In this document: piece after piece, positions 2,609 to 24,041 of the stretch
How positions within the stretch are numbered: the first letter of the stretch is position 1
Layout: each line of letters opens with the position of its first letter
Assembly: GCA_913757435.1 (NCBI GenBank)
Contig: CAJYDM010000002.1
Coordinates: forward strand, 310,001 to 374,000
DNA length: 64,000 nt
Source of the DNA: Syntrophomonas sp. DTU019
GTDB lineage: Bacteria > Bacillota > Syntrophomonadia > Syntrophomonadales > Syntrophomonadaceae
Direction of reading: 5' to 3'
Notes under the pieces: generated by a model
What the model was told of the DNA's origin: nothing
The model's input: only the letters and a program-made list of their open reading frames with translations
Databases searched by the model: none
Made by a program: the position numbers and the translations under genes

Positions 2609-3766
2609 GTGAATTTTGATTTAACAGATGAACAAAAGATGGTTCAGGAAATGGCCAAAAACTTCGCAGAGAAGGAAATTGCCCCTTATGTTGACCAGGA
2701 CGAGGAAAACCACTATTATCGCAGAGAGATTTTAACCAAGATGGGCGAATTGGGTCTCTTAGGTTGGAGCATCCCCGAGGAATACGGCGGAAATGGCATG
2801 GGTTGGATGGAGGCGGTTTTGGCCCTTTACGAAATTGCTAAAGTTCATACCTCCTGGCGGCTGAGCATAAGCGGCAACTGCTGGGGGCCGGCGATGACTA
2901 TCAATCAGTATGGCACCAAGGAACAGAAGGAGAAATACATCCCCAAACTGATCAGCGGAGAGCATGTAGGCAGCTTCGCCATAACTGAAGCCAATTCCGG
3001 TTCGGATGTGGCCAGCATGAAGACGTTCGCTGAAGACAAGGGTGACCACTGGTTGATGAATGGCAGCAAGATGTGGATATCCGGAGGTCATGTTTCCGAT
3101 GTGGGCCTGGTATACGCAGTAACCGAGAAGGGTGCTGGCCACAATGGTCTATCCTGCTTTATCGTCGATTACAATAACACTCCCGGCATTACCAGGATTC
3201 CTATAACCACTAAAGTTGGCATGTGGACCGCTCCCACCTCGGAGCTGGTTTTCGAAAACGCCATAATACCGAAAGAAAACCTGTTGGGACCTTTAAATAA
3301 GGGCTTTTTCATCTGTATGTGGCAGCTTAACAACACCCGCATGGGCTGCGCTACTGGAGCGGCTGCGCTTTCCGCCGCCTGCCTGGAAGGTTCGGTGCAA
3401 TATGCTAACGAACGCACCCAGTTTGGCAAACCGATTGGTAAATACCAGATGATTCAGGCGCAGCTGGCAGAGATGAAACTGGAAGATGAAGCCGCCAAGT
3501 ACCTGGTTTACCGCGCTGCCTGGCTAAAAGACAAAGGATTGCCCAGCCAGCAGGCTACCTCCATGGCCAAGTTATTCGGTTGTCAGGCTGCAGTACATGC
3601 CGCTAATATGGCTATGAAGATTTATGGATCCTATGGATATTCCACCGAATATCCATGCGGAAGATGGCTGCGTGATGCCAAACAGTTCGAAACCCTGGAA
3701 GGCACCTCCAACATGCACATGCAGATCATCGCCAACATTGAGCTGGGTTATCAGCCCAACAGATAA
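2609..3766 (+). CDS. Acyl-CoA dehydrogenase, probably glutaryl-CoA dehydrogenase (non-decarboxylating type)
   Basis: This 385-residue flavoprotein has the full acyl-CoA dehydrogenase fold, with FAITEANSGSDV and MWISGG near the flavin and the catalytic Glu at about residue 364 in TLEGTSNMH. An Arg at residue 84 (SWRLSI) falls where glutaryl-CoA dehydrogenases bind the substrate's distal carboxylate. With the glutaconyl-CoA decarboxylase gene 49 bp downstream, this points to oxidation of glutaryl-CoA to glutaconyl-CoA. The GTG start follows GGGAGG by 8 nt; no upstream ATG fits. The operon is preceded by a sigma-54 promoter at 2367. The alternative is a general short-chain (butyryl-CoA) dehydrogenase; the glutaryl assignment rests on Arg84 and the partner gene. 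Confidence 0.8.
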   Translation: MNFDLTDEQKMVQEMAKNFAEKEIAPYVDQDEENHYYRREILTKMGELGLLGWSIPEEYGGNGMGWMEAVLALYEIAKVHTSWRLSISGNCWGPAMTINQYGTKEQKEKYIPKLISGEHVGSFAITEANSGSDVASMKTFAEDKGDHWLMNGSKMWISGGHVSDVGLVYAVTEKGAGHNGLSCFIVDYNNTPGITRIPITTKVGMWTAPTSELVFENAIIPKENLLGPLNKGFFICMWQLNNTRMGCATGAAALSAACLEGSVQYANERTQFGKPIGKYQMIQAQLAEMKLEDEAAKYLVYRAAWLKDKGLPSQQATSMAKLFGCQAAVHAANMAMKIYGSYGYSTEYPCGRWLRDAKQFETLEGTSNMHMQIIANIELGYQPNR

Positions 3767-3815
3767 GCATACCAGGTTTTAAACTATTAATGTTTTTGGA
3801 AGAAGGGAGAAGAAG

Positions 3816-5561
3816 ATGAGCGAATACGGTTTTTCACTACATCCATATTTTAAGGAAATGCCTGGCATCGGCAAAGCACTGAGAAAGGCTAATAAGGCCA
3901 ATACTGAAGAGCTTAAAAAGGTCGAAGCGGTCATAGCCGCAGAAGTGGAAAGAGTTAAGAATTCAGGCAAAGCCACCGATTTGATGAACAAAAAAGGGGA
4001 ATTGGACGTCTGGCAGCGCCTCGAATACCTGGTAGATCCGGGCACCTTTTGCCCTTTGCATACCATCTATGATCCACAGGGCAATGAAGAAGGCAGCACC
4101 GGTGTAATTGACGGATTAGGCAAAATATCGGGCAAATGGGCAGTAATCATCGCCTCTAACAACAAAATCATGGCCGGAGCCTGGATCGCCGGACAAGCCG
4201 ACAATATTCTCAGGGTCACCGATATGGCCAAAAGACTGCACATACCGCTGGTATGGGTGCTAAACTGCAGCGGTGTGAAACTGATGGAACAGGAAGAAGT
4301 TTATCCCAACCGCAGGGGTAATGGCACTACTTTCTATCGCCACGCCGAACTCCAGCAGATGGGTATACCAGTGATAGTGGGCATTTATGGCACTAATCCG
4401 GCTGGCGGTGGTTACCACGGCATCAGCCCCACTACCTTAATAGCCCATAAGAATGCCAATATCGCCGTAGGCGGCGGAGGTATTGTGGGTGGCATGTCGC
4501 CTAAAGGTTATTTCGACGAGGAGACTGCCGAGAGCCTGATCGATGCCACCAGGCAGTTGTCTTCAACTCCTCCGGGCAGGGTTGAAATCCATTACAACGG
4601 CACTGGATTCTTCAGAGAGGTATGTGACACTGAGGAAGCTGTACTGGACAGAATTAAAAAATACATGCAGGATATGCCAGCCTACCATCCCGACTTTTTC
4701 CGGGTAGCGGATCCGGTAGAGCCGAAGTTTCCGGCTGAAGACCTTTACAGCCTGGTGCCTGCCAATCAGAGAAGAACCTATTCTATGCCTGAGGTTCTGG
4801 CTCGGCTGTTTGACAATAGCGAGCACTTGGAATACAAGCCTGATTACGGGCCCGAGGTTTATTGCGGTCTGGCCAAAATCGACGGCTATCTGTGTGGTGT
4901 GATTGGCAACAATCAGGGTGCTCTGGGTGCTGAATATCCTGAATACACCGACCAGTACCAGGGTATGGGCGGAAAGCTCTACCGCCAAGGCCTGATAAAA
5001 ATGAGCGAATTCGTTACCTTCTGTGGCCGTGACCGTATCCCCATGATATGGGTGCAGGATACCACCGGCATCGATGTGGGTGACATCGCTGAAAGGGCCG
5101 AACTCCTGGGGTTGGGCCAATCACTGATTTATTCCATCGAAAGCACAGAACTACCTATGATGCTAGTGGTCTTAAGGAAGGGCACGGCTGCAGCCCACTA
5201 TGTTATGGGCGGGCCCAACGCCAACAACAATAACATCTTTACACTGGGCACGGCTGCCACGGAAATTTATGTCATGCATGGGGAAACCGCCGCTGCCGCC
5301 ACCTATTCGCGCCGCCTGGTCAAAGAAAAAGATGCTGGCAAGCCACTGGAACCCATTATTGAAAAGATGAATGACATCGTCAAGGATTACTATGAGAGAT
5401 CCCGGCCGGCTTTCTGCGCCAAGCGCGGCTTTGTCGATGAAGTTGTGAATTTGGACGAGCTGCGCAAATACTGCAAGGCTTTTGTGGGAGCCTCGTATCA
5501 AAATCCCACTTCCATATGCCCGCCCCATCAGATGATAACCCCAAGGATTATCAAAGGCTAA
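3816..5561 (+). CDS. gcdA: Glutaconyl-CoA decarboxylase subunit alpha (carboxyltransferase)
   Basis: At 581 residues this protein matches the length and motifs of GcdA from amino-acid-fermenting Firmicutes, including VPLVWVLNCSGVK-like, YPNRRGNGT, GIYGTNPAGGGYHGISP and QDTTGIDVG segments. These are two crotonase-fold carboxyltransferase halves. GcdA moves the glutaconyl-CoA carboxyl group to the biotin of the membrane decarboxylase, yielding crotonyl-CoA; the biotin carrier and the sodium-pumping GcdB are not in this window. It starts at an ATG after GGGAGAAGAAG and ends shortly before a strong terminator at 5608. Other acyl-CoA carboxyltransferases (methylmalonyl-, propionyl-CoA) are shorter, so the identification is fairly firm, while the physiological direction remains an inference. 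Confidence 0.88.
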   Translation: MSEYGFSLHPYFKEMPGIGKALRKANKANTEELKKVEAVIAAEVERVKNSGKATDLMNKKGELDVWQRLEYLVDPGTFCPLHTIYDPQGNEEGSTGVIDGLGKISGKWAVIIASNNKIMAGAWIAGQADNILRVTDMAKRLHIPLVWVLNCSGVKLMEQEEVYPNRRGNGTTFYRHAELQQMGIPVIVGIYGTNPAGGGYHGISPTTLIAHKNANIAVGGGGIVGGMSPKGYFDEETAESLIDATRQLSSTPPGRVEIHYNGTGFFREVCDTEEAVLDRIKKYMQDMPAYHPDFFRVADPVEPKFPAEDLYSLVPANQRRTYSMPEVLARLFDNSEHLEYKPDYGPEVYCGLAKIDGYLCGVIGNNQGALGAEYPEYTDQYQGMGGKLYRQGLIKMSEFVTFCGRDRIPMIWVQDTTGIDVGDIAERAELLGLGQSLIYSIESTELPMMLVVLRKGTAAAHYVMGGPNANNNNIFTLGTAATEIYVMHGETAAAATYSRRLVKEKDAGKPLEPIIEKMNDIVKDYYERSRPAFCAKRGFVDEVVNLDELRKYCKAFVGASYQNPTSICPPHQMITPRIIKG

Positions 5562-5860: not shown

Positions 5861-5935
5861 TTGTTAAAACAGCTTCTCTATTTTGATGTAACCAAGCCGA
5901 AGATGATCAAGGACCAGCGAGAAAGGAATATAAAT

Positions 5936-8044
5936 ATGGAATTTGTTACTTTTCCAAATTCGTTTATTTTCGTAAAGGACTTGATTAATAAAGACTTCCA
6001 GTGTTTACGTCCCGAAGATTCCTTACGTACGGTGGTGAGCAAATACAAAGAGACCAAGGTAGAGACACTGCCAGTGGTTGACGAAGAAGGCAAGCTAGTG
6101 GGGGTATTTCCCCGGGGTAGGCTTTATAATGCCATCCTCGACGGGAAAAGTATGGACGAACCCTGCAGTTCCTATATGGTTACATCCCCCCATACCCTTC
6201 CTTCTGATCTCAGTTATAATGAACTAACTTTTAGCCTGCGGGTAAATCATAGCCGGGTGGGAACGATTCCGGTTGTCGATGAGAATCATAAACTGGTAGG
6301 CATGGCTGGAAAATTGGAATATGTCCGCACAACTCTGGGACTGACCAGAAAAGCTATGGCACACCTGGAATCTGCCTTCCAGGCCATGAGTGAAGGAATC
6401 ATAGTTACTGACGAACATGGCAACATAGGCCGCATCAACCTGGCGGCCGAAGGCCTGTTTGGCATAGGCGATGTAATTGGCAAACATATTTCGGATGTGT
6501 TTCCGGAAATCGTGTTTGATTTAGTGCGCCGCCAAAATGTGTATTGCATCGTACGCTCTTTACCTGTAATAATCAATCAGGTGCCGATAACTGTTGATGA
6601 CCGGATCACTGGCATGACCTATACTTTTCTTGATTTATCCGATTTAGAGGAGGTCACCGCCGAGCTGGAGATCGTTCAAGAGCTGCAGGCCAACCTGCAG
6701 GGCGTCTTGAGCGCTTCTTCTGATGGCGTAATCGTTTCTGATCAGCAAGGCTTGATCAGATATCATAATGAAGGCGCTATCAGCCTGCTAAAGAATCCCC
6801 CCCCTAGTCTGGTCGGTCAACATATTGAAAATATCGTGGGCAATTCTAGCAGCTTCAGTAATGCCATAGAAACCGGCCTGCCTGAAGTTGAAGTATGCTC
6901 CATAAATGGGCGCAATTGTATTGTTTCACATGTCCCGGTGAAAAGAACCCGAGCCGAGGGCGTATCGGCTGGCATAGTGAGCACGGTGTATCTAGATGAT
7001 AACCGCTTGACCGAACAACTATCCCAAAGCTGGTTTTCGCTTAAACAACAAGTTCAGTATTATCGCCAGGAACTTGAAAAGCATGGTGGCTCAGATACTG
7101 CTGAGTTTAATAAGATAATTACTGCAAACAGCGGATTTAAAGCCCTGAAAAATGAAGCCGAAAGAGTGGCCCGCAGTACCTCAACGGTTTTGCTCACTGG
7201 TGAGAGCGGAGTGGGAAAGGATATGTTCGCCAGGGCCATTCATGCCGCAAGTCAGCGGGCCCGGCTTCCTTTTGTGAAAGTCAATTGTGCCGCCATACCA
7301 GAAACCCTGCTGGAGTCGGAACTATTTGGCTATGCACCAGGGTCTTTTACTGGCGCTTTGAAGAAGGGCAAAATGGGGTATTTTGAGCAAGCTCATGAAG
7401 GCACTATCTTCCTGGATGAAATTGGTGATATGCCGCTTTCCATTCAGGTAAAAGTCTTGCAGGTTTTGCAGGAAAAACAGTTTATGCGGGTTGGCGGCAC
7501 CCGCACTCAGACAGTGGACGTTAGAATAATAGCAGCGACCAACCGGGACTTGCGTGAGGCTATGGCCAAAGGGGAGTTCCGAGATGATCTCTTTTATCGC
7601 TTGAATGTGATCGAGTTCAACCTCCCCCCACTGCGCTCCAGACCTGAGGATATTCTGCCCTTGGCAGAGGTATTTATAGAAAAATACAACCGCATTTTGG
7701 GCACACGTGTAACCCGGCTTTCCAGGGAGGCAGAAGAGTTGCTGGTCTCCTATTCCTGGCCAGGCAATATAAGGGAATTGGAAAACGCCATCGAAAGAGC
7801 TGCTAATTATGTCTGGGAAGGCGAAATAAAGAAAACTCACCTTCCTGCACATATAAACCCAGATCGTATTGAAAACAAGATAGAGACCGTACGTCCGTCT
7901 TTGTCCTCATTAGATTTTGTTGAAAAGGATATTATTGTTGATGCTTTGAAAAAGACCGCAGGCAACAAAAGTGCTGCTGCACGGTTGCTACGGATCAGCC
8001 GTTCTTCGTTTTATGATAAACTGGCCAAACATGGCATAAGTTAA
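5936..8044 (+). CDS. Sigma-54-dependent transcriptional activator, CBS-CBS-PAS-PAS-AAA-Fis
   Basis: The 702-residue protein has paired CBS domains (about 10-130), two PAS domains (about 145-380), and a sigma-54 AAA+ domain with Walker A GESGVGKD near 421-428, the sigma-54 contact loop as GSFTGA near 467 and Walker [10 protein letters not shown] Fis-type helix-turn-helix ([20 protein letters not shown]) closes it. It would bind upstream DNA and open sigma-54 promoters in response to ligands of the CBS or PAS domains, possibly adenosyl nucleotides, CoA esters or redox state. ATG 5936 after AAAGGA is preferred to TTG 5861, which lies at the predicted transcription start. It follows the gcd operon and converges on an MFS gene with a 4-bp overlap, so either is a likely target. 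Confidence 0.9.
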
Positions 8045-9571: not shown

Positions 9572-10756
9572 TTACAGTTTTTCCAATAGCACCGTTAGAG
9601 ACTGACCACCCAAGGCTCCGACATTGACCAGACCCAGTTTGCCTTGACCGGTTTGCAGGCGGCAGACCATATTGGCTACCAATGCTCCTCCGGTTGCTGC
9701 ACCAGCGTGTCCAAAGCCCAGGCTGCCTCCGTCCACATTGGCCTTTTCGGCCGCCTGGCCCAGTTGTTTCAAGACTGCCAGACCGTATGCGGCGGAAGGC
9801 TCATGGAAATCAATGAAGTCTATATCGTCTAAAGTGGTCCCGGTTGCCTTCAAGGCCTTTTCGATCGATTTAGCGGTTGTGATCTCTAAGAGCCGGGGAT
9901 TGCCTGCAGCAATCCCAAAGCCCAGCATGCGGGCCAGCGGTTTGGCCCCCAGGGCCTGGGCACGGTCTGCTGAAAGCATGGCAATGCTGGCTGAACCGTC
10001 AGCCAGTGGGGCAATATTCCCCTCGGTGGCAGTACCGTCCGGATTAACCGCAGCCAGTTTCATCAATTGGGCAAAGCCGGGGGCTTTGGCGGCATCATCG
10101 GCTTCTATCACGACTTCGGCCTTCTTTACCTTTTTGGTAACTGGAACTATAGCGTCTTTAAACAGCCCATTTTTAATAGCGGCGGCCGCTTTTGACTTGC
10201 TGGCAGCGGCATACTCATCCAGTTCACTGCGGCTAATGCCGTAATTTGCTGCAATGATATCAGCTAATGTATAGGCACTGAGTTCACCATAAGTGTCCAC
10301 CGGCTGAGCTTTGATTTCTACGTCAACCTTGGAATCATGGAAACAAGCGTTTTCAGGCCCGAATTTGTAGCGCGGGTGGACCAGATACCACTGTGCCTGG
10401 CTGTTGGTTTCAATGCCACCAGTCATGAGGGCCGAATACTCACCACTGATAATCTTGTTAAAAGCACTGATCATGGCTTGAAGGGCGCCTGCACACAGAG
10501 CGTTCAAAGTAAATCCGGCTGTACTTTCTGCCAGTCCTGCCAGTAGCCAACCGTGCCTGCCAATATTGGCGGGTAGACTACTCTGTTTGGCCTCACCGTA
10601 TATACAGGCATCAAATTGTGAGGAATCAAACCCGGCCCGGGCAACAGCTTCTTTCATTGACATGGCGGCAATATCCTGAGAACGTAGATCAGCAAGTGAA
10701 CCCATATACAATCCCACAGGAGTACGTGCTGCACTGGCGATTACGACGTCTTGCAT
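9572..10756 (-). CDS. Thiolase-superfamily protein with incomplete active site (SCP2-thiolase-like)
   Basis: The 394-residue protein has the thiolase fold and the nucleophilic Cys88 (TLNALCAGALQ), plus a His350 in GFGHAGAATG where thiolases have GHPLG. The Asn of the usual NEAF motif is His318 in HEPSAA, and the C-terminal acid/base Cys is absent: the CxG position reads NVGALGGQ with Gly380. SCP2-type thiolases also have HDCF instead of NEAF and no C-terminal Cys, but keep a Cys in HDCF, which this protein lacks. It sits 17 bp after a canonical thiolase in the same cluster. It may catalyse acyl transfer without Claisen condensation, or be a partner subunit. Fold assignment is firm, function open. 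Confidence 0.75.
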   Translation of the reverse strand: MQDVVIASAARTPVGLYMGSLADLRSQDIAAMSMKEAVARAGFDSSQFDACIYGEAKQSSLPANIGRHGWLLAGLAESTAGFTLNALCAGALQAMISAFNKIISGEYSALMTGGIETNSQAQWYLVHPRYKFGPENACFHDSKVDVEIKAQPVDTYGELSAYTLADIIAANYGISRSELDEYAAASKSKAAAAIKNGLFKDAIVPVTKKVKKAEVVIEADDAAKAPGFAQLMKLAAVNPDGTATEGNIAPLADGSASIAMLSADRAQALGAKPLARMLGFGIAAGNPRLLEITTAKSIEKALKATGTTLDDIDFIDFHEPSAAYGLAVLKQLGQAAEKANVDGGSLGFGHAGAATGGALVANMVCRLQTGQGKLGLVNVGALGGQSLTVLLEKL

Positions 10757-10773
10757 AACTATCCCTCACTTCC

Positions 10774-12000
10774 CTAGTCTATTGTCTTGATTATGCCGGC
10801 AACGCCGATTCCGCCGCCGCAGCACATAGTAGACAAACCGTATTTGCCATTGGTACGTTGCAACCCATACAGGAGTTTAGTAGTAATAATGCATCCGCTG
10901 CCTCCTAAGGGATGGCCCAGCGCTATTGCACCGCCATACAGATTGACATGAGAATCAAGCCAGTCTCTGTCTACATCCCAGTCGCTCATCCATTCTCTGT
11001 AGACGGCCAGGCTCTGTCCGGCAAAAGCCTCGTTTAACTCCACCAGGTCCATATCTTTTAGAGTTAAGCCAGCTTTACCCATTGCTATCTCAACTGCAGG
11101 TACTGGTCCGCGCCCCATTATAGAAGGATCAACACCTGCTATACCGCCGGCTACAAACTCTGCTCTAGGCTTAACGCCCAATTCTTCAGCTTTTTCCTTG
11201 GACATCAAAATGGCCATGGCGGCTCCGTCATTTCTTCCTGAGGAGTTAGCTGCAGTCACAGAACCGTCTTTTTTAAATACCGGTTTTAATTTGGCCATGG
11301 CCTCCAGGGTGGTTTCGCGCGGATATTCGTCTACTTTAAAGATCCCTTTGCTGCCATCGGCCTTCTCGTATTCCACAGGAACTATTTCGGCCACAAAATC
11401 GCCATTGGCAATGGCCTGTTTGGCCAATACCTGGCTTCTGTATCCAAATTCGTCCTGTTCTTCACGGGAAATCTGGTGAATATCGACTAGATTTTCAGCA
11501 GTAATGCCCATGGGTATGTTGCCATACCTTTCCACCGGCGCTCCACCAGGGCCTCCGGCAATGATGGCATCATAAAGGGTCAGATTGGTGGTTCCAAAGG
11601 CCTGATTGGTCTTGCCGCTTAAGAAAAACTCCCCGGTGCTCATGGATTCTACGCCTCCGGCCAGTACCACATCGGCAAATCCATTTTTAATAAACTCGTA
11701 GCCCTCGATCATCGACAACAGCCCAGATCCACAGGCAACCGTTACTGTAGCCGCCGGAAGTTCTTCCGGAAGCCCGATATTTAGGACCATATTACGGGCA
11801 ATATTGGCACAGATGGTATTTTGTTTAACCTGACCTACAAAACAATAATCATAATATTCCGGCTTTACCTTAGCCTTATTGCGGTCTACAATAGCCTTGG
11901 CCACCTGGGAGACTAAATCGATAGGTTTAACATTTTTAAGAGAGCCACCCATAGTGCCTATGGCGCTTCGGGCCATGTCAACTATTACAACTTCACGCAT
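10774..12000 (-). CDS. Acetyl-CoA C-acetyltransferase (thiolase)
   Basis: The 408-residue protein has all thiolase catalytic elements: Cys90 in TVACGSGLL, NEAFAGQS, IALGHPLGGSG and the C-terminal Cys393 in TMCCGGGIG. Thiolases cleave acetoacetyl-CoA (or longer 3-ketoacyl-CoA) with CoA to acetyl-CoA, or run the reverse condensation. It lies 39 bp from an enoyl-CoA hydratase and 17 bp from the degenerate thiolase, in an apparent minus-strand operon. A second canonical thiolase at 14033 in the same cluster suggests different chain-length or direction preferences. The start is an ATG after TAGGAGGGATATA. Confidence 0.92.
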   Translation of the reverse strand: MREVVIVDMARSAIGTMGGSLKNVKPIDLVSQVAKAIVDRNKAKVKPEYYDYCFVGQVKQNTICANIARNMVLNIGLPEELPAATVTVACGSGLLSMIEGYEFIKNGFADVVLAGGVESMSTGEFFLSGKTNQAFGTTNLTLYDAIIAGGPGGAPVERYGNIPMGITAENLVDIHQISREEQDEFGYRSQVLAKQAIANGDFVAEIVPVEYEKADGSKGIFKVDEYPRETTLEAMAKLKPVFKKDGSVTAANSSGRNDGAAMAILMSKEKAEELGVKPRAEFVAGGIAGVDPSIMGRGPVPAVEIAMGKAGLTLKDMDLVELNEAFAGQSLAVYREWMSDWDVDRDWLDSHVNLYGGAIALGHPLGGSGCIITTKLLYGLQRTNGKYGLSTMCCGGGIGVAGIIKTID

Positions 12001-12039: not shown

Positions 12040-12837
12040 TTATTTACCGGTGTATTCTGGTTTTCTCTTTTCCACAAAAGCACGCATGCCTTCCTTAGCG
12101 TCTCTACTGCCAAAAATGGCCGCCCAGGCATCCTGCTCTACTCTCATGGCGGTCTCGTTGTCTGCGCCCCAATTCTGGTTAATTACTGCCTTGAGCATTT
12201 TCAGTGTAAAGGGGGGTTTTTTTGCCAGCTTCTCTGCCCATTCTCGGGCGGTGCTCATTAATTCGGCGAGCGGGACCACTTTGTTTATGAGCCCGATCTC
12301 CAGAGCTGTCTGAGCGTCTATCATGCCTCCAAAAAAGAGCATTTCCTTAGCTTTGCACATGGATACATTCTGCACCAGCCGATGGGTCGCTCCTCCACCT
12401 GGAAAAATCCCAACGTTGATCTCTGAACAGGCGATTTTGGCATTTTCCGCAGCTATACGCAGGTCGCATAACAGCACATTTTCTGCTCCGCCGCCCATGG
12501 CGTATCCCGCTACAGCCGCAATAGTCGGTTTAGGCATATCAGCCAAAGCCCTCTGACCAGCACAATTCAGGTCAGCATGAGCGCGGGCATCGACCACACT
12601 GTATTGTGAAATAGCTGGCAAATCTCCGCCAGCACTAAAAACCTTCTCACCACCGGTGAGTATTACCACTCTGACATCGGGGTCGTTTCCCAGCGCGGTA
12701 AAAATCTCCACCCGTTCACGATTTACCTCATTATTTATGGCATTTAATACTTCCGGCCGGTTGAATTGAACCGTGGCAATATGGTTTTCTACTGTGACCA
12801 GCATGGTATTAAACTTCTTATCCCGGTATGATAACAA
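12040..12837 (-). CDS. Enoyl-CoA hydratase (crotonase family)
   Basis: A 265-residue crotonase-fold protein; the two catalytic glutamates are present in GGGAEN and CSEINVG, and the CoA-binding loop reads SAGGDL. It would hydrate crotonyl-CoA to 3-hydroxybutyryl-CoA. A TTG start at 12837 is chosen because it lies 8 nt after GGAGG and gives MLSYRDKKF, matching the MSYRDKDY of its paralogue at 17091; the first ATG is inside the domain. A hairpin (12883-12913) separates it from the dehydrogenase gene upstream. Both paralogues share GIFPGGGAT, so they come from a duplication. Confidence 0.9.
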   Translation of the reverse strand: MLSYRDKKFNTMLVTVENHIATVQFNRPEVLNAINNEVNRERVEIFTALGNDPDVRVVILTGGEKVFSAGGDLPAISQYSVVDARAHADLNCAGQRALADMPKPTIAAVAGYAMGGGAENVLLCDLRIAAENAKIACSEINVGIFPGGGATHRLVQNVSMCKAKEMLFFGGMIDAQTALEIGLINKVVPLAELMSTAREWAEKLAKKPPFTLKMLKAVINQNWGADNETAMRVEQDAWAAIFGSRDAKEGMRAFVEKRKPEYTGK

Positions 12838-12994: not shown

Positions 12995-13882
12995 TTAGAA
13001 CTTGATGTCGGTTCTGGGTTTCTTTTCCCCAGAGGTGTAGTCGTACCATCCCTTGCCGGTTTTGCGGCCCAAATCGCCAGCGGTGACCAGTTTCTCTAGA
13101 ATAAGACTGGGCGCAAAATGGGGATTCTTATAACCCGCATACAGCTGTGACAACACGTTGTAGTTGACATCCAGACCTACGAAATCGGCCAGTTCAAATG
13201 GTCCCATGGGCATATTGGCACCCAGTTTCATGGCTGTGTCGATATCTTCAATGCTTGCTACGCCTTCCAACAAGCATTTGTAAGCTTCACAACGCAGCGC
13301 TGAATTGATCCGGTTTACGATAAAACCGGGAACGTCTTTGGCCACAACCGTAGTCTTGCCCATTTTCTGAGCAACTTCAGCAACTACCGCGATAGTTTCA
13401 TCCGAGGTTTTGATAGCACGGATGAGTTCGCACAGTCTCATTACCGGCACAGGACTGAAAAAGTGCATACCGATAAATTTGGATTGATCTTTAACTGCTA
13501 CAGCCAAAGAGGTAATTGGAATAGATGAGGTGTTGGTTGCCATGATGCATTCAGGTTTGCATATAGCGTCCAGTTTGCCGAAGATTTCTCTCTTGAGATC
13601 AGCGTTTTCATACACAGCTTCAATGACCAGGTCAACATCGGCTGCATCCTCAAGGGCAGAACTGGGTTTGATAAGAGCCATGGCACCGTCAAGAGCTTCC
13701 TGAGTCAGGGTTCCTTTGGCAACCTTTTTGGCCAAAAGCTTATTGATTCCGGCAATTCCCTTTTCAACAGCGGCGGGGGCAATATCATAAAGATACATTT
13801 CATAACCGGCCTGGGCCCCTACCTGCGCAATCCCGGCACCCATAAATCCTGCTCCAACCACGAATATTTTCTTAACTTCCAT
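12995..13882 (-). CDS. hbd: 3-hydroxybutyryl-CoA dehydrogenase
   Basis: The 295-residue protein begins MEVKKIFVVGAGFMGAGIA, with the Rossmann motif GxGxMG, and contains the HAD signature IGMHFFSPVPVM and GFIVNRI. It oxidises 3-hydroxybutyryl-CoA to acetoacetyl-CoA with NAD(P). The ATG at 13882 is preferred over ATG 13888 and upstream codons because it is 9 nt after AGGAGG, whereas 13888 is only 3 nt away. Neighbours are a thiolase upstream and an enoyl-CoA hydratase downstream, giving the consecutive steps of beta-oxidation. Length and motifs are normal for the single-domain bacterial enzyme. Confidence 0.93.
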   Translation of the reverse strand: MEVKKIFVVGAGFMGAGIAQVGAQAGYEMYLYDIAPAAVEKGIAGINKLLAKKVAKGTLTQEALDGAMALIKPSSALEDAADVDLVIEAVYENADLKREIFGKLDAICKPECIMATNTSSIPITSLAVAVKDQSKFIGMHFFSPVPVMRLCELIRAIKTSDETIAVVAEVAQKMGKTTVVAKDVPGFIVNRINSALRCEAYKCLLEGVASIEDIDTAMKLGANMPMGPFELADFVGLDVNYNVLSQLYAGYKNPHFAPSLILEKLVTAGDLGRKTGKGWYDYTSGEKKPRTDIKF

Positions 13883-13942
13883 TTTCATTTGCCTCCTTTG
13901 TGCTAATCGCAAATACTCAGGGACAACTACATTTGTTAAGTT

Positions 13943-14032: not shown

Positions 14033-15217
14033 CTAGCCAACCCATTCCCAGATGGCGGCAACGCCCTGGCCGTGTCCGACGCACATGCTTTCTACCGCAT
14101 ATTTGGCGCCGTAATAAGGCATCTCATGCATGAGTGTGGTGGCTATACGAGCACCGGTGCAGCCCAAGGGATGTCCCAAGGCGATTCCGCTGCCGCGCGG
14201 GTTTAATAAAGGATGATTCCTGATGCCCAGTTCCTTGGTGCAGTATACTGCCTGGGAGGCAAAGGCTTCATTGATTTCCCAGATATCGATCTGATCCATT
14301 GTCATTCCGGCTTGTTTTAAGACCTTGGGAATCGCGATAGCCGGTCCGATGCCCATATAGACCGGATCCACACCGACAGCAGTGTAGCCTATAAGTTTCA
14401 TTTTGGGTTTAAGGCCCAATTCTAAGCATTTTTCCTTGCTGGCTACCAGCACGCAGGCAGCGGCGTCATTGGTCTGGCTGGCGTTTCCGGCCGTTACTGT
14501 AGCCAGTTCGTCCTTCAAAAACACTGGTTCCATTTTGGCCAGGGTCTCCATAGTGGTGCCCGGTCTAATGCCCTGGTCTCTGTCGGCAACCTGCCTGACG
14601 GTGCTGCCGTCTCTCTGCAAAACCTCGACCTCAATGGGCAGGATTTCATCTTTGAACAAACCTTCGGCAGTGGCTTTATGAGCTTTGGCATGGCTCTCCA
14701 CCGCCATCTGGTCCTGCTCTTCGCGGGTAATGCCATACTTGCGGGCTACCATCTCAGCCGTCCAACCCATGCCTTTGGCATTGTCATCTGTGAACTCACC
14801 CAGACGCGGGTTATGTTCATTGCCCCATCCCATGGGGACATGGGTCATATGCTGTACGCCACCAGCCAGGATTAATTCAGAACCCCAGCCCATATTGATT
14901 TCAGAAATGGCGTTGAAAATGGCCTGTACACCGGAAGAACAGAAGCGGTCCACGGTGCATCCCGGAATGCTATAAGGGAAGCCTGCCATAATTACCGAAT
15001 AGCGTCCGATGTTGCTGGCCATGTCTTTAACCAGAGCGGTTCCGCCCAGGATTACCCCATCCAGCTCTTCTTTCTTGTCCTCCAGTCCGGCCCGTCGCAT
15101 CAATTCATTCATAGTCAGTGCTGCCAGGTCATCGGCTCTAACATTGGCGAAATATGAGTACTTACCAGCCTTGGCAATAGCGGTTCTAACACTTTCAACC
15201 AAATAGATTTCTCGCAT
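14033..15217 (-). CDS. Acetyl-CoA C-acyltransferase (thiolase)
   Basis: This 394-residue thiolase has Cys93 (DRFCSSGVQ), INEAFASQ, ALGHPLGCTGAR and the C-terminal Cys379 (SMCVGHGQG), so its active site is complete. It follows the long acyl-CoA dehydrogenase by 22 bp and precedes hbd. The first three genes of the cluster (hydratase, dehydrogenase, thiolase) together with hbd encode a complete beta-oxidation spiral. The HGQG variant near the second Cys resembles FadA/degradative thiolases more than biosynthetic ThlA, which is an inference from motif wording only. Confidence 0.92.
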   Translation of the reverse strand: MREIYLVESVRTAIAKAGKYSYFANVRADDLAALTMNELMRRAGLEDKKEELDGVILGGTALVKDMASNIGRYSVIMAGFPYSIPGCTVDRFCSSGVQAIFNAISEINMGWGSELILAGGVQHMTHVPMGWGNEHNPRLGEFTDDNAKGMGWTAEMVARKYGITREEQDQMAVESHAKAHKATAEGLFKDEILPIEVEVLQRDGSTVRQVADRDQGIRPGTTMETLAKMEPVFLKDELATVTAGNASQTNDAAACVLVASKEKCLELGLKPKMKLIGYTAVGVDPVYMGIGPAIAIPKVLKQAGMTMDQIDIWEINEAFASQAVYCTKELGIRNHPLLNPRGSGIALGHPLGCTGARIATTLMHEMPYYGAKYAVESMCVGHGQGVAAIWEWVG

Positions 15218-15239: not shown

Positions 15240-17069
15240 TTAATTGATGATCAAGGCCTCTTCCGGAACTTCCAAAACACTGGTGTCGGCATCCTTGATT
15301 ACTGTGGTCAATGTAAATACGTTGGGCAGGATGTTGTTGGCATAGTAACGCGCTGCGGCCAATTTGCCGTTATAAAAGTTCATATCATAATGATCCGCGG
15401 GCAGATCCGCAATAATCTTTTTCACTGTTAAAGCCTGGTCTAAGAGGCAATAGGCAACATAGAGCTGCGCGAATACGAACAGAATACGGATGGCAAAGAC
15501 ATTAATGAGCTGGCCTTTGTCAGCTTTGTCGGCATGCCAGGAATAAACCAGGTTCATAACCTCTTCCGCGCAATTGTAAGCCTTTTCCATGTTAGCGAAT
15601 TCCTTGGCCAACCCCTCAACATTTTTATTATCATCTATGAACGCCTTGATGCTTCCCATCCACTTTTTGAAGGGTTCGCCGTCTTTCATGGTCATCTTGC
15701 GGCCTACCAAATCGTTGCCATGAATGAAGGAGGTGCCCTCCCAGATGGTTAGAACCTTGGAATCGCGAAGATACTGTTCAACCGGATATTCCTTGGTGTA
15801 TCCTACTCCCCCCAGAACCTGAATGGCTTCCGCAGTCATCAAGGCTGCAGTCTCACTGCCATAACACTTGACCAACGGGGTCAGGATGGCGGCCACATCA
15901 GCGCATTCCTTGGCTTTGGCCTTGTCTTCCGGTTTGGAATTTTCAGCTATGTCCAGGCTCCAGAAGCCTTTGAATATCATAGCCCTGATGCCTTCGGTGT
16001 GGGCCTTCATATCCAGGAGCATTCTTCTCACATCATCATGCTTGATAATGGGAACGCGCTCGCCTTTTATATAACCCTGAACCCTGTCAATGGCATACTG
16101 AGAAGCCAGGGCATATGCCGCAGAGGCCTGGTTGTTGGCATTGTGTCCGGTGCCTATACGGGATTCATTCATCATATTAAACATCATCATCAGGCCCTTA
16201 GAGCGGCCTTTTTCATCGGGGTCCGGTCCGACCTGGATTCCGTAGCACTCGTCGTTTTCACCGTAATTCAGCATACAAGTAGCCGAACCGTTAAGTCCCA
16301 TTTTATGTTCGATGGCAATGGTGGTAACATCATTATCTTTACCCAGGCTGCCGTCTTCATTGACCCAGATTTTGGGAACAATATAAAGGCCCAATCCTGC
16401 TGAGCCTTTGGCTCCTTGAGGCGGACGGGCCAGAACCATATGAATGGTGTTTTCACATATGGAGCCGTCACCGGCAGTGATGAACATCTTGGTCCCTTTG
16501 ATCTTCCATATACGCGGGTCTTCGGTAGGATAAGCCCTGGTCAGGGCATCGCCGACGTCTGAACCGGCGGAAGGTTCAGTCAGGTTCATGGTGCCCTGCC
16601 AATCGCCACTGAGCATCTTGGGAACGAATCTTTCTTTATCAGCTTCGGTGCCGAATTTGATAATCAGGTTGGCAGCCCCGGAGGTTAATTTGATGTTTGA
16701 GCCCATGGCCGGACAGGCGGCAGCGATCATTTCAGCTACTGCTTTGTAAAGGATCAAGGGCATACCACCGTCAACTTCCACGCATTCACTGCTGGATCCC
16801 CAGCCATTTTGCTGCAGGAAGCGGAATACTTCTTTATATCCGGGGGGATTGGTGACTACGCCGTTTTCGAACTTGACGGGGTTCTTGTCGCCTTCAACAT
16901 TGATGGGGCTGACTACTTCCCGGGCAACTTTGTACCCTTCGGTTAAAATGGGATCAACATCGTCAATGCTAAAATACTCTTTGAAACGATCCAGAGCGAA
17001 TACTTCTTCTGAAGGAAGCCATTCTTTCAAGATGAATTTTAAATCGCGAACATTATATTTGTATTCCAT
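15240..17069 (-). CDS. Acyl-CoA dehydrogenase, long (about 600-residue) family with C-terminal extension
   Basis: At 609 residues this is well above the 380-residue norm and matches the FadE5/DmdC-like branch, which has an N-terminal helical segment and a C-terminal extension. Motifs include LTEPSAGSDVGDA, FITAGDGS and the catalytic Glu in TIWEGTSFIHGND. It oxidises a saturated acyl-CoA to the trans-2-enoyl-CoA. It lies 21 bp after the second enoyl-CoA hydratase, in the sigma-54-preceded cluster. Substrate length cannot be read from sequence; in butyrate-degrading syntrophs a butyryl-CoA or medium-chain role is plausible. The ATG start has GGAGG at the right distance. Confidence 0.9.
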   Translation of the reverse strand: MEYKYNVRDLKFILKEWLPSEEVFALDRFKEYFSIDDVDPILTEGYKVAREVVSPINVEGDKNPVKFENGVVTNPPGYKEVFRFLQQNGWGSSSECVEVDGGMPLILYKAVAEMIAAACPAMGSNIKLTSGAANLIIKFGTEADKERFVPKMLSGDWQGTMNLTEPSAGSDVGDALTRAYPTEDPRIWKIKGTKMFITAGDGSICENTIHMVLARPPQGAKGSAGLGLYIVPKIWVNEDGSLGKDNDVTTIAIEHKMGLNGSATCMLNYGENDECYGIQVGPDPDEKGRSKGLMMMFNMMNESRIGTGHNANNQASAAYALASQYAIDRVQGYIKGERVPIIKHDDVRRMLLDMKAHTEGIRAMIFKGFWSLDIAENSKPEDKAKAKECADVAAILTPLVKCYGSETAALMTAEAIQVLGGVGYTKEYPVEQYLRDSKVLTIWEGTSFIHGNDLVGRKMTMKDGEPFKKWMGSIKAFIDDNKNVEGLAKEFANMEKAYNCAEEVMNLVYSWHADKADKGQLINVFAIRILFVFAQLYVAYCLLDQALTVKKIIADLPADHYDMNFYNGKLAAARYYANNILPNVFTLTTVIKDADTSVLEVPEEALIIN

Positions 17070-17090: not shown

Positions 17091-17891
17091 CTACTCGCCG
17101 GTATACACGGGTTTGCGTTTTTCCAAAAAGGCATTCATGCCTTCTTTTGCATCTTTGGTACCGAAGGTCATCGACCAGCCATGGGTCTCGATCTGCAGAC
17201 CTTTTTCCAGACTGCTGCTCCAAGCTGCATTCAATGCCTCTTTGGCCATGCGCAAAGAAAAAGCAGGCTTTTTCGCCAACTGCCTGGCCAACTTCAGAGT
17301 AGTCTCTTTTAGCTCCGCCAGGGGAACAACTTTATTGACCAGGCCATATTTCAACGCGGTCTCAGCATCGAACATCTGCCCGGTAAAAACCAGTTCCTTG
17401 GCTTGACAAAGCGATATGTGCTGGGGCAGTCTCTGTGTAGCGCCTCCACCCGGGAATATCCCCACATTGATCTCCGGCAGAGCAAATTTGGCATTGTCCG
17501 CCGCGATTCTCAAATCGCAGCACAGGGCATTTTCGAAGCCGCCGCCCATGCACACCCCAGCGATCATAGCGATAGTAGGCTTGGGAAGATTGGTAAGTGT
17601 CAGGCCGCCCTGCACATTCTTATCAATGAATTCCCGTGCTTCTTTGACCCCATAATGGACCATCGACGCCAGGTCGCCGCCGGCACTGTAAGCCTTTTCA
17701 TTACCGGTCATGATCAAGACTTTGATCTCGGGATCCTGACCTGCTTCGAAAATAGCTTCACTGCGTTCGATCACCAATTGAGCATTGGCGGCATTCAACG
17801 CTTCCGGACGATTGTACTGGATTATGGCTATATCGCCATCGCCTTCAATGGTGACCTTGATGCACTGATAGTCCTTATCACGGTATGACAT
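17091..17891 (-). CDS. Enoyl-CoA hydratase (crotonase family), first gene of the cluster
   Basis: The 266-residue protein carries both catalytic glutamates (GGGFENAL and LPEINVG) and SAGGDL at the oxyanion side. It is a paralogue of the hydratase at 12040. The ATG follows AAAGGAGGGTG at good distance. A sigma-54 promoter lies about 215 bp upstream, inside the loop of a large inverted repeat. This gene thus opens the transcription unit for beta-oxidation. Confidence 0.91.
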   Translation of the reverse strand: MSYRDKDYQCIKVTIEGDGDIAIIQYNRPEALNAANAQLVIERSEAIFEAGQDPEIKVLIMTGNEKAYSAGGDLASMVHYGVKEAREFIDKNVQGGLTLTNLPKPTIAMIAGVCMGGGFENALCCDLRIAADNAKFALPEINVGIFPGGGATQRLPQHISLCQAKELVFTGQMFDAETALKYGLVNKVVPLAELKETTLKLARQLAKKPAFSLRMAKEALNAAWSSSLEKGLQIETHGWSMTFGTKDAKEGMNAFLEKRKPVYTGE

Positions 17892-18193: not shown

Positions 18194-19612
18194 TTATAGT
18201 TTGCCTGCCGCATCGGCTTCGGCCAGGGCCTCTTCATATACCACAAATCCGTCTGCTTTCGGTTTAGGAGCCATCAAGGTCAAGATTACCAGGATCGGTA
18301 CTCCCACCGCCAAGGACGGCCACAGTGAAGTAACATAAGGATTGCCTGCAAAGTGCCAAACCGCTGCTACAACACCGCCCACCAGTATAGACCAGAAGGC
18401 GGCCCGGCTGTCAACCCGCGGCCAGAATATGGCTACTAACAGCACCAATCCGGCGATGGCCCGGATCTGGAAAGCACCGGCCATCTGTCCCAGTATGGAG
18501 GTGGCTTGCAAGCCGAAATAGGTTGCGGCCAGACCAACAACAGTCATGGATATGCGGGAAAACATCAAGCGTTCACTTTCATCCGCGCTCGGTTTGAATA
18601 ACTTGTAGACGTCCTCACTGAGCATGGTACTGGTTAGCAGCAATAGTGCAGGACCGGTAGACATAATCGCAGCCAAAATGCCCATGGAAGCCAGAACCGC
18701 GAAAGTCGGCCCCAATTGATTGGCTACCGTATAAAGGATACTTCCGCTGCTAGCAGTAGGCAGCATAGCTTTGCCAACAACACCGATGATTGCCGGGAAA
18801 CACGCAAATATAAACGTTAATACAGAAGCCCATATAAACCCTTGCTTGTAAGAATGTTCATCCCTGGCTCCGAAAATGGCGGCGATTAACACCGATGCGG
18901 CAAAGAATGACAAAGCCGTACCTACCACCCAGCCGGCCATGGTCAACAGGTCAGGCTGATCCATCCGGAAATAGGTCGTAGGCAGGGCGACCTGTAATTG
19001 CCCTATGCCACCAGCCCATTTCACGGCGAAAATAGCCACTGTACCCAGACCAACATACATCACTATGGTGTGCAAGGCGTTCATCCAGGCCATACCCTTC
19101 ATCCCACCGGTAATGCACAAGACGATAAACAGAATGCCCAAGACCCAGGTAATCATAGTCTTGTCCACGCCCAGCAGGGGCGACAGTATATTACCTGCAG
19201 CCACCGGCTGCATAGCAAAAAGAATGGCGTAAACCAGAACCAGCACAAACATCATGACCATTCTGGTTTTGGCGTCAAACCGGGCAGCATAAACCTGGGG
19301 CACTGAAACGGAATTAAATTTATTGCCGATAACCCGGTAGAACTTGGCGGCGGTAAATAAAACCACCAGACAACCGATGCTCATGCCCCAGTTGACCCAT
19401 ACCGCTGATATTCCGAACTGGAAGGCTTGAGCGGCATTGCCAACCGTGCCTGCACCGGCAATGATTTCAGCGAACAACAGCGGGATAATCAACATCGCAC
19501 CTAAGTCTTTTTTGGCAACAAAATATCCGGCCAGAGTACTTTTTTGCCGCATCATATATAAGCCAATCCCGGTAGTAATTGCAAAATAAGCTACTACACA
19601 TGCTATAACCAT
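18194..19612 (-). CDS. Sodium:solute symporter (SSS family)
   Basis: A 472-residue, highly hydrophobic protein with about 13 membrane segments. The SSS features GYFVAKKDLGAM, AEIIAGAGTVGNAAQAF and GMKGMAWMNALHT match carriers for carboxylates and related solutes. It starts at an ATG after AAAGGGGTG, 40 bp downstream of the CoA-transferase gene, so the two are probably co-transcribed. The pairing suggests sodium-driven uptake of an organic acid that is then activated by the CoA-transferase. The substrate is inferred, not shown. Confidence 0.85.
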   Translation of the reverse strand: MVIACVVAYFAITTGIGLYMMRQKSTLAGYFVAKKDLGAMLIIPLLFAEIIAGAGTVGNAAQAFQFGISAVWVNWGMSIGCLVVLFTAAKFYRVIGNKFNSVSVPQVYAARFDAKTRMVMMFVLVLVYAILFAMQPVAAGNILSPLLGVDKTMITWVLGILFIVLCITGGMKGMAWMNALHTIVMYVGLGTVAIFAVKWAGGIGQLQVALPTTYFRMDQPDLLTMAGWVVGTALSFFAASVLIAAIFGARDEHSYKQGFIWASVLTFIFACFPAIIGVVGKAMLPTASSGSILYTVANQLGPTFAVLASMGILAAIMSTGPALLLLTSTMLSEDVYKLFKPSADESERLMFSRISMTVVGLAATYFGLQATSILGQMAGAFQIRAIAGLVLLVAIFWPRVDSRAAFWSILVGGVVAAVWHFAGNPYVTSLWPSLAVGVPILVILTLMAPKPKADGFVVYEEALAEADAAGKL

Positions 19613-19652: not shown

Positions 19653-20999
19653 CTAATCAATCTTGTTGGTCCGGGTCCAGATATGCTGCTCCTGGGCCGC
19701 TTTAATCAAATCATCGCGGAAATCGGGGTGCGCGATATCGATTAAGAGCTCAGCTCTTCTGTAGGTTGATTTTCCCATAACGTTGGCTATGCCGTATTCG
19801 GTTACGATGTAGGGTGCGTAGGTTCTGGGCATAGTTACGATGGTTCCCGGACTGAAATGGGGAACGATTCTGGACACCATTTTGCCCTTCTGCATCTTGG
19901 TGGAAGTAAGGCAGATAAAAGGCTTGCCACCTTTGGATTTTAACGCCCCAATGGTGAAATCAAGCTGGCCGCCGGTGCCAGATATATTGCGGAATCCGGA
20001 GGATTCAGAATTGATCTGACTGTAAAGATCAATTTCAACCGCGTTGTTTATGGCGATTACTTTGTCGTTTCGTGCGATGACGTCTGGATTGTTGGTGATA
20101 TCCACCGGATATGTGGCCAAGCGTGGATTATTGTGCATATAGTCGTAAAGCCGCTGCGAACCAAGAGCAAATGTGTAGGTGATTTTCCCCTTGTCAATGT
20201 TCTTCTTTTCCCCATTGACAATCCCTTTTTCTGCCAGGTCAATGAAGCAATCGGCCATCATTTCAGAATGGATACCAAGGTTTTTCAGGTCGGTGTCGGC
20301 AATCATCTTGCCTATCATGGAAGGCATTGCGCCTATGCCAAACTGCAGAGTGGCGCCGTCTTCGATTTCATTAATGAGTATAGAAGCAATCTTTTTCTCA
20401 GCATCGGATACGGGAAATTCCGACGGAAAAACCGGCATGGGACTCTCATGCTCTACCACATAGTCAACCTGGGAGATGTGGATGGATTCCTGTTCCCCAC
20501 CCAGGCACCACGGTACATTGGGATTAACCTCCAGGATCACCACGTCTGCCGCGTCGCAAAAGGTTTTGGCATAAGAGCAGGCCGGTCCAAAATTGAAGTA
20601 ACCGTGTTCGTCCATTGGCGTGGTCATGAGCATGGCTACCTTGGGCGGGTACATATTGCCGGAACGGGTATTGCCTGGGCACTGCCCGTAGTTGCCAGGA
20701 ATGTAATAAGCCAGGTCACGGTCTCCCATATGGCGTTCGTGTCCGCTCATATGTCCGGAATGATATAGAAACGATTTTTGTTCGGGGTCTGCTTTGACTA
20801 TTTCAGGTTCGTACAAAAGACACACGCCTTTTACATTGACCCCAGTCAACTCACCAGCTCTACGGGCCAAAGCCTGATCCAGAGCACGGGGGCCCATGGC
20901 GAAATGTCCGTACCATACCCACTGATTGGATTGGACTACTTTTACGGCTTCATCGGCTGTTCGAAGTTTGCTGGCATAAAGGTCACTATAGGTTCCCAA
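19653..20999 (-). CDS. Acetyl-CoA:carboxylate CoA-transferase (4-hydroxybutyrate/butyrate CoA-transferase family)
   Basis: The 448-residue protein belongs to the family-I-like acetyl-CoA hydrolase/transferase group. The active-site Glu lies in NSESSGFRN, followed by GTGGQLDF and TEYGIANVMG. It would transfer CoA from acetyl-CoA to a carboxylate such as butyrate or crotonate, saving ATP in activation. A TTG start is used because GGGGG lies 10 nt upstream and the nearby ATG at 21010 is out of frame and stops at once. The operon with the symporter is preceded by a sigma-54 promoter at 21126 and a palindrome at 21257. Confidence 0.88.
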   Translation of the reverse strand: MGTYSDLYASKLRTADEAVKVVQSNQWVWYGHFAMGPRALDQALARRAGELTGVNVKGVCLLYEPEIVKADPEQKSFLYHSGHMSGHERHMGDRDLAYYIPGNYGQCPGNTRSGNMYPPKVAMLMTTPMDEHGYFNFGPACSYAKTFCDAADVVILEVNPNVPWCLGGEQESIHISQVDYVVEHESPMPVFPSEFPVSDAEKKIASILINEIEDGATLQFGIGAMPSMIGKMIADTDLKNLGIHSEMMADCFIDLAEKGIVNGEKKNIDKGKITYTFALGSQRLYDYMHNNPRLATYPVDITNNPDVIARNDKVIAINNAVEIDLYSQINSESSGFRNISGTGGQLDFTIGALKSKGGKPFICLTSTKMQKGKMVSRIVPHFSPGTIVTMPRTYAPYIVTEYGIANVMGKSTYRRAELLIDIAHPDFRDDLIKAAQEQHIWTRTNKID

Positions 21000-23592: not shown

Positions 23593-24041
23593 CGATTCAT
23601 CCCCTCCTCTAATCAACAGCAACAGCGATGCAAAATGTACCGCTTCCAAAACAATATTCCGGTCTAGATGCCCTAAGATTAGCTCTGCGATTGATCCTAA
23701 CAGTTTTAATGTAATGTAATGCTAGATTGTAATACTAGATGATTATTAAATGTGTATGGTCGACCGGACAGTTGTACGAGTAAGCAAACAAAAGCCTGAA
23801 TGTACTAATAAGGCATCATCAGACTGTTTTTCCTTCTCATTTTGCAGCCTGTTGGCATCACCCACCACCAGCCATTGCTACGACGAAGGATTTACCCCAT
23901 TAAACGGCGGGATACGTCTTACCGGCATTTCCGGCAGCCCCAGAAACGCAAAATATCCTTGCCACTAGAAATTGCAAGTATTATGCCAGGTTAAATTAAT
24001 TCCCGGTTAAAGCGGCAGAATTGACATAAAAACCATACAGT
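23593..24041. other. 449-bp intergenic region upstream of the second activator
   Basis: The segment 23710-23733 has three copies of TGTAAT, two of them overlapping, and a repeated CTAGAT (23722-23727 and 23735-23740), which could be a regulator site. I see no gene or clear terminator here; the open frame at 23750 has no recognisable protein features. Confidence 0.5.

Follow-up and report, generated by a model that had tools for sequence, protein, structure and literature searches.

A thiolase-like protein with an altered active site is encoded beside an ordinary thiolase in Syntrophomonadales

Genes at the locus

The window, i.e., the whole stretch of DNA analyzed here, consists of 64,000 nucleotides from Syntrophomonas sp. 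DTU019 and contains a run of nine minus-strand genes extending from a gene for a CoA-transferase to a gene for a thiolase-like protein (TLP). Judging from strand and spacing, the nine genes probably form one operon for acyl-CoA breakdown. The genes, with the basis of each assignment, are:

9572..10756, minus strand: thiolase-like protein (TLP), 394 aa, of a family with a Cys-His-His active site (open reading frame with ATG; Pfam; structure model)
10774..12000, minus strand: partner thiolase T2, 408 aa, with intact NEAF, GHP and CxG motifs (open reading frame; Pfam; alignment)
12040..12837, minus strand: enoyl-CoA hydratase/isomerase family protein (Pfam ECH_1)
12995..13912, minus strand: 3-hydroxyacyl-CoA dehydrogenase (Pfam 3HCDH)
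14033..15217, minus strand: ordinary thiolase T1, with NEAF and the C-terminal Cys intact in the T1 family and in the window copy (Pfam; alignment)
15240..17069, minus strand: acyl-CoA dehydrogenase of the 609-aa type (Pfam)
17091..17891, minus strand: enoyl-CoA hydratase family protein (Pfam)
18194..19612, minus strand: sodium:solute symporter (Pfam SSF)
19653..20999, minus strand: acetyl-CoA hydrolase/CoA-transferase (Pfam)

The order along the minus strand is CoA-transferase, symporter, hydratase, acyl-CoA dehydrogenase, T1, 3-hydroxyacyl-CoA dehydrogenase, hydratase and T2, with TLP last, and 17 bp separate the end of the T2 gene from the ATG of TLP. The plus strand across 9572-10756 is full of stops. 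Pfam assigns to TLP the domains Thiolase_N (6.2e-49) and Thiolase_C (8e-21), both above the curated cut-offs and spanning the whole length of the protein. The thiolase-like reading frame, which a preliminary description had placed in a beta-oxidation cluster without naming its strand, is thus real and lies on the minus strand.

The operon is bordered on either side by a gene for a sigma-54 activator that has CBS and PAS domains (5861-8044 and 21487-23649 of the window). Farther out, on the strand opposite to the operon (2609-5561), lie a gene for an acyl-CoA dehydrogenase and then one for a 581-aa carboxyl transferase, which we take to be glutaconyl-CoA decarboxylase-like.

Active-site residues and predicted structure of TLP

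In thiolases, according to excerpts of PMC3406046, one Cys accepts the acyl group, the oxyanion hole is made up of an Asn/His or His/His pair, and the alpha proton is moved by another Cys. The corresponding columns were located in an alignment of 66 thiolase rows taken from the loci (12 TLP, 12 T2, 7 T1 and 35 other thiolases). The 54 comparison thiolases in this alignment were gathered by similarity to canonical thiolases, and eight SCP2-type rows are excluded from the count. The catalytic columns correspond to the following codons in the window:

10493..10495, minus strand: Cys88, nucleophile column (CxS); Cys in 12/12 orthologs and in 54/54 other thiolases
9803..9805, minus strand: His318, NEAF Asn column, motif HEPS/HEQS; His in 12/12 orthologs, Asn in 54/54 others
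9707..9709, minus strand: His350, GHP His column, motif GHAGAATGG; His in all alignment rows
9617..9619, minus strand: Gly380, column of the second catalytic Cys (CxG); Gly in 10 and Ala in 2 of 12 orthologs, Cys in 54/54 others

Five residues (C88, H318, E319, S321 and H350) are invariant among the 12 TLP orthologs, and the motif at position 318 reads HEPS in ten of them and HEQS in two. At the corresponding columns, every one of the 54 comparison thiolases has Asn, Phe, His-Pro and Cys. Measured against the residue set of catalytic thiolases, TLP therefore has one of the two Cys, lacks the NEAF Asn and keeps the His of the GHP column. The substitutions in the window copy had been read correctly from the single sequence (Cys88 kept, Asn replaced by His318, the second Cys by Gly380, and a remaining His, which is His350), and the alignment extends the pattern to all 12 orthologs, bearing out the earlier claim of a nucleophile retained in the absence of the acid/base Cys. 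That a catalytic Cys might instead be placed elsewhere in the active site, an outcome named beforehand as speaking against this claim, found no support, as a search for a replacement Cys across the TLP family returned no invariant Cys besides C88.

By sequence, the canonical thiolases are closest to TLP, which aligns end to end with them; in the structural alignment its identity to the Clostridium acetobutylicum thiolase is 35%. An AlphaFold2 model of TLP built with seven sequences reached a pLDDT of 81 and a pTM of 0.86; residues 122-158, which we take to be the region that includes the tetramerisation and covering loops of thiolases, are poorly predicted (pLDDT < 50). The matches listed for the model by Foldseek and VIA-align (50 rows) are all canonical thiolases, although the lack of ketosynthases from these rows carries no weight, and VIA-align superimposes it on 4xl3 with Z 57.2 and an rmsd of 1.7 over 376 residues at 35% identity. 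TLP thus has in common with canonical thiolases such as ThlA of C. acetobutylicum and the Zoogloea ramigera enzyme the fold over the full length, Cys88 and the GH His, and differs from them in four replacements, namely NEAF Asn by His, C-terminal Cys by Gly/Ala, NEAF Phe by Ser and GHP Pro by Ala. The Zoogloea N316H mutant (2wku), also among the structural matches, is an engineered counterpart of only one of these changes.

The fold and the overall similarity to canonical thiolases could be taken to mean that TLP is an ordinary working thiolase that uses another base, e.g., Ser321 or His318, both of which are invariant. We consider this highly improbable. The base Cys is present in every one of the comparison thiolases and in 0/12 TLPs, no other Cys is invariant in its place, and in the Zoogloea thiolase engineered loss of the second catalytic Cys reportedly stops condensation.

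The His in the NEAF Asn column is shared with the SCP2-type thiolases (motif HDCF), as the available text of PMC12329534 describes them. Nevertheless, TLP is not a typical SCP2 thiolase, in agreement with the preliminary description: the Cys of HDCF is absent from HEPS/HEQS, and the Pfam domain is Thiolase_C and not Thiolase_C_1.

Distribution of TLP and pairing with T2

Orthologs of TLP, with 57-100% identity, were found in 12 of the 63 genomes of the order and in 7 of its 29 genera, and the next match has 37% identity; a search at the level of the class added no genomes to these 63. Among 398 sampled genomes of the phylum, in which the best four candidates per genome were scored, seven matches had E of 1e-75 or better, five of them TLP and two ordinary thiolases (36-37% identity, Asn and Cys intact). 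A DNA pattern for GHAGAATGG matched in 4/398 phylum genomes, in each case at a TLP gene. Plasmid records contained 19 matches to TLP, with identity of about 34% at best among the 8 of 19 listed, and the single match in a viral scan is an ordinary thiolase. A single-query scan of genome contigs yielded one relative, L003, which is counted once together with G002. The distribution of TLP may extend beyond the genomes where it was seen.

The 12 genomes with TLP, and no others among the 63, have close orthologs of T2 (70-100% identity), and no match falls between 51% and 70% identity. In all 12 loci T2 lies directly upstream of TLP on the same strand, at a distance of 17-23 bp. The pair persists where other genes of the operon are missing: G064 (locus L047) has it without local genes for 3-hydroxyacyl-CoA dehydrogenase and hydratase, and L045 and L046 retain it without T1. 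It is therefore T2 and TLP that stay together as a unit. Genes that are always adjacent and co-inherited are the mark of heteromeric pairs such as KS/CLF and PhlA/PhlC, and TLP and T2 have this arrangement in 12/12 loci. Equal distribution is, on the other hand, expected of co-inherited neighbors whether or not their proteins touch, and it fits two enzymes of one pathway as well. The correlation between the TLP and T2 distance matrices (r = 0.88) is likewise expected from shared ancestry alone. A small, phrase-bound literature search found no paper on a hetero-oligomer of two thiolases.

T2 has two peculiarities of its own, each present in 12 of 12 sequences: its CxG loop reads CCGGGIG and not CIGGGQG, and T87, three residues before the Cys of CGSG, takes the place of a near-fixed Asn.

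Neighbors of the pair at other loci

Genes for 4HBT-type thioesterases lie downstream of TLP at six of the 12 loci (identified by Pfam in three of the six and by similarity in the rest):

L038, 8566-8976: 4HBT-type thioesterase
L039, 12013-12408: 4HBT-type thioesterase
L042, 8764-9177: 4HBT-type thioesterase
L043, 8849-9259: 4HBT-type thioesterase
L044, 10658-11071: 4HBT-type thioesterase
L047, 8805-9242: 4HBT-type thioesterase

Release of thioesters may therefore matter at these loci. Homologs of the thioesterase occur in 8 of the 63 genomes, two of which (G063 and G071) have no TLP, and none was found in the genome of the window at E 1e-15.

The thioesterase genes, together with residues in TLP that should permit formation of an acyl-enzyme, suggest another possibility, namely that TLP acts on its own in the same pathway, as an acyl-CoA hydrolase or acyltransferase that does not bind T2. 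We find this very unlikely, as it leaves unexplained why T2 and TLP are never apart, and a dedicated thioesterase makes a further hydrolase less needed.

Near the T2-TLP pair, loci L043-L046 have genes for methylmalonyl-CoA mutase, whose large and B12 subunits are encoded separately, for MeaB and for carboxyltransferase-like proteins, and L045 also has an epimerase-like protein of the glyoxalase family. Among these, the mutase in L044, the B12 subunit in L043 and MeaB in L044 and L045 were typed, and the others were assigned by size and similarity. Genes for chemoreceptors (MCP) lie just downstream of TLP at four loci, those in L037 and L042 being recognized by similarity only:

L037, 8459-9790: chemoreceptor
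L038, 7367-8542: chemoreceptor
L042, 9449-10615: chemoreceptor
L039, 10741-11898: chemoreceptor

The position of these genes beside TLP hints that the substrate of the pathway is also sensed.

Selective constraint and origin of TLP

The dN/dS ratios of TLP in the three closest pairs are 0.080, 0.093 and 0.058, compared to 0.034, 0.051 and 0.030 for T2 in the same pairs; two further TLP pairs were saturated in dS and excluded. A pseudogene or a sequencing error is ruled out by the intact reading frame in 12 genomes and dN/dS of 0.06-0.09. TLP has 128 invariant positions among 394, and 31 of them fall among the 55 positions that we assigned, by our own definition, to five active-site loops (hypergeometric p 7e-5); T2 has 185 invariant positions, 41 of them in active-site loops (p 8e-6). 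At 12 positions (G90, A91, D166, A252, A284, T293, D316, H318, S321, L346, A351 and A353) TLP is invariant while at least 95% of the 54 other thiolases share a different residue, and nine of the 12 fall in the active-site loops so defined. Because purifying selection acts on TLP and its loops are enriched in invariant residues, the active site appears to be rewired and not decaying, and the pattern of constraint is, as far as sequence can tell, the signature of a changed function.

These results bear on the possibility that TLP has no catalytic role and serves T2 as a structural or regulatory subunit, much like a chain-length factor, with Cys88 as a relic. The strict pairing with T2, the loss of the second Cys and the faster evolution of TLP (mean distance of 0.347, compared to 0.256 for T2) are in its favor. 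However, a dead subunit should lose the nucleophile and both His, which TLP keeps in 12/12 sequences, and its loops should not be rich in invariant positions; chain-length factors do lose the Cys. We therefore regard a non-catalytic role as unlikely. The preliminary description had suggested that TLP might be a structural partner of T2. The partnership, in the functional sense, is strongly supported by the tight pair in the same genomes, whereas the strong constraint on the active-site loops, which that description had not noted, speaks against a purely structural, decaying subunit.

In a 53-row tree TLP forms one clade and T2 another (100/100 for each), and the stem of TLP is long, at 1.5 changes per site. 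This tree is a 74-row tree minus the eight intended SCP2-type outgroup rows and 13 other thiolase rows; the 74-row tree, in which one outgroup row (L085) was a wrong open reading frame and the other seven had a branch of 7, was set aside. The AU test did not reject TLP and T2 as a single clade (p 0.358). Descent of TLP from a recent tandem duplication of T2, or a common origin of the two, is neither supported nor rejected by these sequences.

Comparison with ketosynthases and other thiolase-fold systems

Ketosynthases have the same fold as thiolases, but the two make the carbanion differently: in thiolases it results from proton abstraction by a Cys, in ketosynthases from decarboxylation. A weak, directed comparison of the TLP profile (n=12) with E. 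coli FabF/FabB gave E 3e-4 and a probability of 39% over 106 columns. In this weak match with FabF, His318 aligns with the His of HGTSTP and His350 with the His of GHxxGAAG, presumably the two catalytic His of FabF. For a profile built from T2 and other ordinary thiolases, the alignment to FabF/FabB was confined to the surroundings of the nucleophile Cys, and a profile comparison with FabH gave nothing useful. The match with FabF is a hint and no more. Elongating ketosynthases (KAS I/II and the KS of KS/CLF) use a Cys-His-His set, according to the available portion of PMC12664062, and TLP has the same set, a correspondence that the preliminary description did not mention, and likewise lacks a proton-abstracting Cys. 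Unlike the ketosynthases, TLP is a thiolase in sequence and in Pfam family, with no ketoacyl-synt hit at E 0.001.

TLP could be a decarboxylating condensing enzyme, in which a canonical thiolase lineage would have arrived independently at the Cys-His-His set of ketosynthases. The condensation partner of the acyl group on Cys88 would be malonyl-CoA or a related carboxyacyl-CoA, with decarboxylation in place of proton abstraction by the missing Cys. This is consistent with the conservation of C88, H318 and H350 next to the replacement of the proton-abstracting Cys by Gly/Ala, with the weak alignment of the two His to the FabF pair, with the residue set of elongating ketosynthases (PMC12664062, in part), and with the methylmalonyl-CoA mutase, epimerase-like and carboxyltransferase-like genes that adjoin some loci. 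The thiolase-like protein TbSLP slowly decarboxylates malonyl-CoA, as stated in excerpts of PMC12329534. On the other hand, the operon of TLP is catabolic, and no acyl carrier protein gene stood out in the lists of open reading frames, although their lower limit of 90 aa may have hidden one. Moreover, the two His may be a mere variant of the oxyanion hole, since SCP2 thiolases have that His and are nevertheless thiolases (PMC12329534, same excerpts). On balance we consider a decarboxylating condensing enzyme rather unlikely. Its combination with the pairing, i.e., a ketosynthase-like TLP performing decarboxylation-driven condensation or acyl decarboxylation within one hetero-oligomer with a normal thiolase in a syntrophic fatty-acid pathway, seems to us more doubtful still; if true, one complex would cleave 3-oxoacyl-CoA and, spending a carboxyl group, also form it.

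Several other systems resemble TLP in part. PhlC of the Friedel-Crafts acylase PhlABC is a thiolase-fold acyl transferase working inside a complex (PMC6392133, partial text). Like TLP, which is known from sequence, it has a thiolase fold and a Cys88, which is acylated in PhlC and accompanied by His347, and acyl transfer replaces thiolysis in a hetero-complex. Its nearest structures, however, are of the SCP2 type, and it is accompanied by DUF35-like and HMG-CoA-synthase-like subunits, according to the same partial text; inspection of the window operon by eye found no room or reading frame for a DUF35 protein. TLP1/SLP and the aldolases Ltp2/Sal combine the thiolase fold with an altered NEAF column, as does TLP, but the motif is YSCF, YDCF, YDHF or YDCY in these proteins and HEPS/HEQS in TLP, and the nucleophile column is Gly in Sal and remains Cys in the TLP family (excerpts of PMC3406046 and PMC12329534). 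KS/CLF is a thiolase-fold heteromer in which KS pairs with a related subunit (PMC12664062, available portion). There are thus precedents in PhlC for acyl transfer, weakly in TbSLP for decarboxylation, and in KS/CLF for pairs of thiolase-fold proteins.

Proposed function

The residues of TLP would leave it three outlets, namely acyl transfer or hydrolysis, decarboxylation-driven chemistry, and holding T2. Acyl-enzyme formation is still expected because the nucleophile and the oxyanion-hole residues are kept; an acyl-CoA would donate its acyl group to Cys88, acting with His350 and His318, and the group would be held in the oxyanion hole. Lacking the base for abstraction of the alpha proton, TLP alone should catalyze neither normal thiolysis nor Claisen condensation. 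Carbon-carbon cleavage in beta-oxidation would be performed by T2, and TLP would pass on or release acyl groups by transfer to CoA or by slow hydrolysis. Acyl transfer or hydrolysis, as suggested at the outset, is consistent with the residues. Alternatively, TLP might tune T2 for a particular 3-oxoacyl-CoA. That the two proteins hand over acyl groups to each other is guesswork.

The strict pairing with T2, taken together with the constrained active site, favors a catalytically competent partner of T2. We propose, with moderate confidence, that this thiolase paralog has been repurposed catalytically and acts only together with T2; most likely the two build a hetero-oligomeric thiolase, in which TLP would be the second subunit. 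Within the canonical branch of the thiolases, the TLP family appears to be a new variant: natural sequences of this branch that have the residue set of ketosynthases, lack the base and are kept under selection. As such, TLP could show whether those few residues suffice to switch the chemistry, and its strict pairing with an ordinary thiolase makes it possible to test whether two thiolases form a hetero-oligomer.
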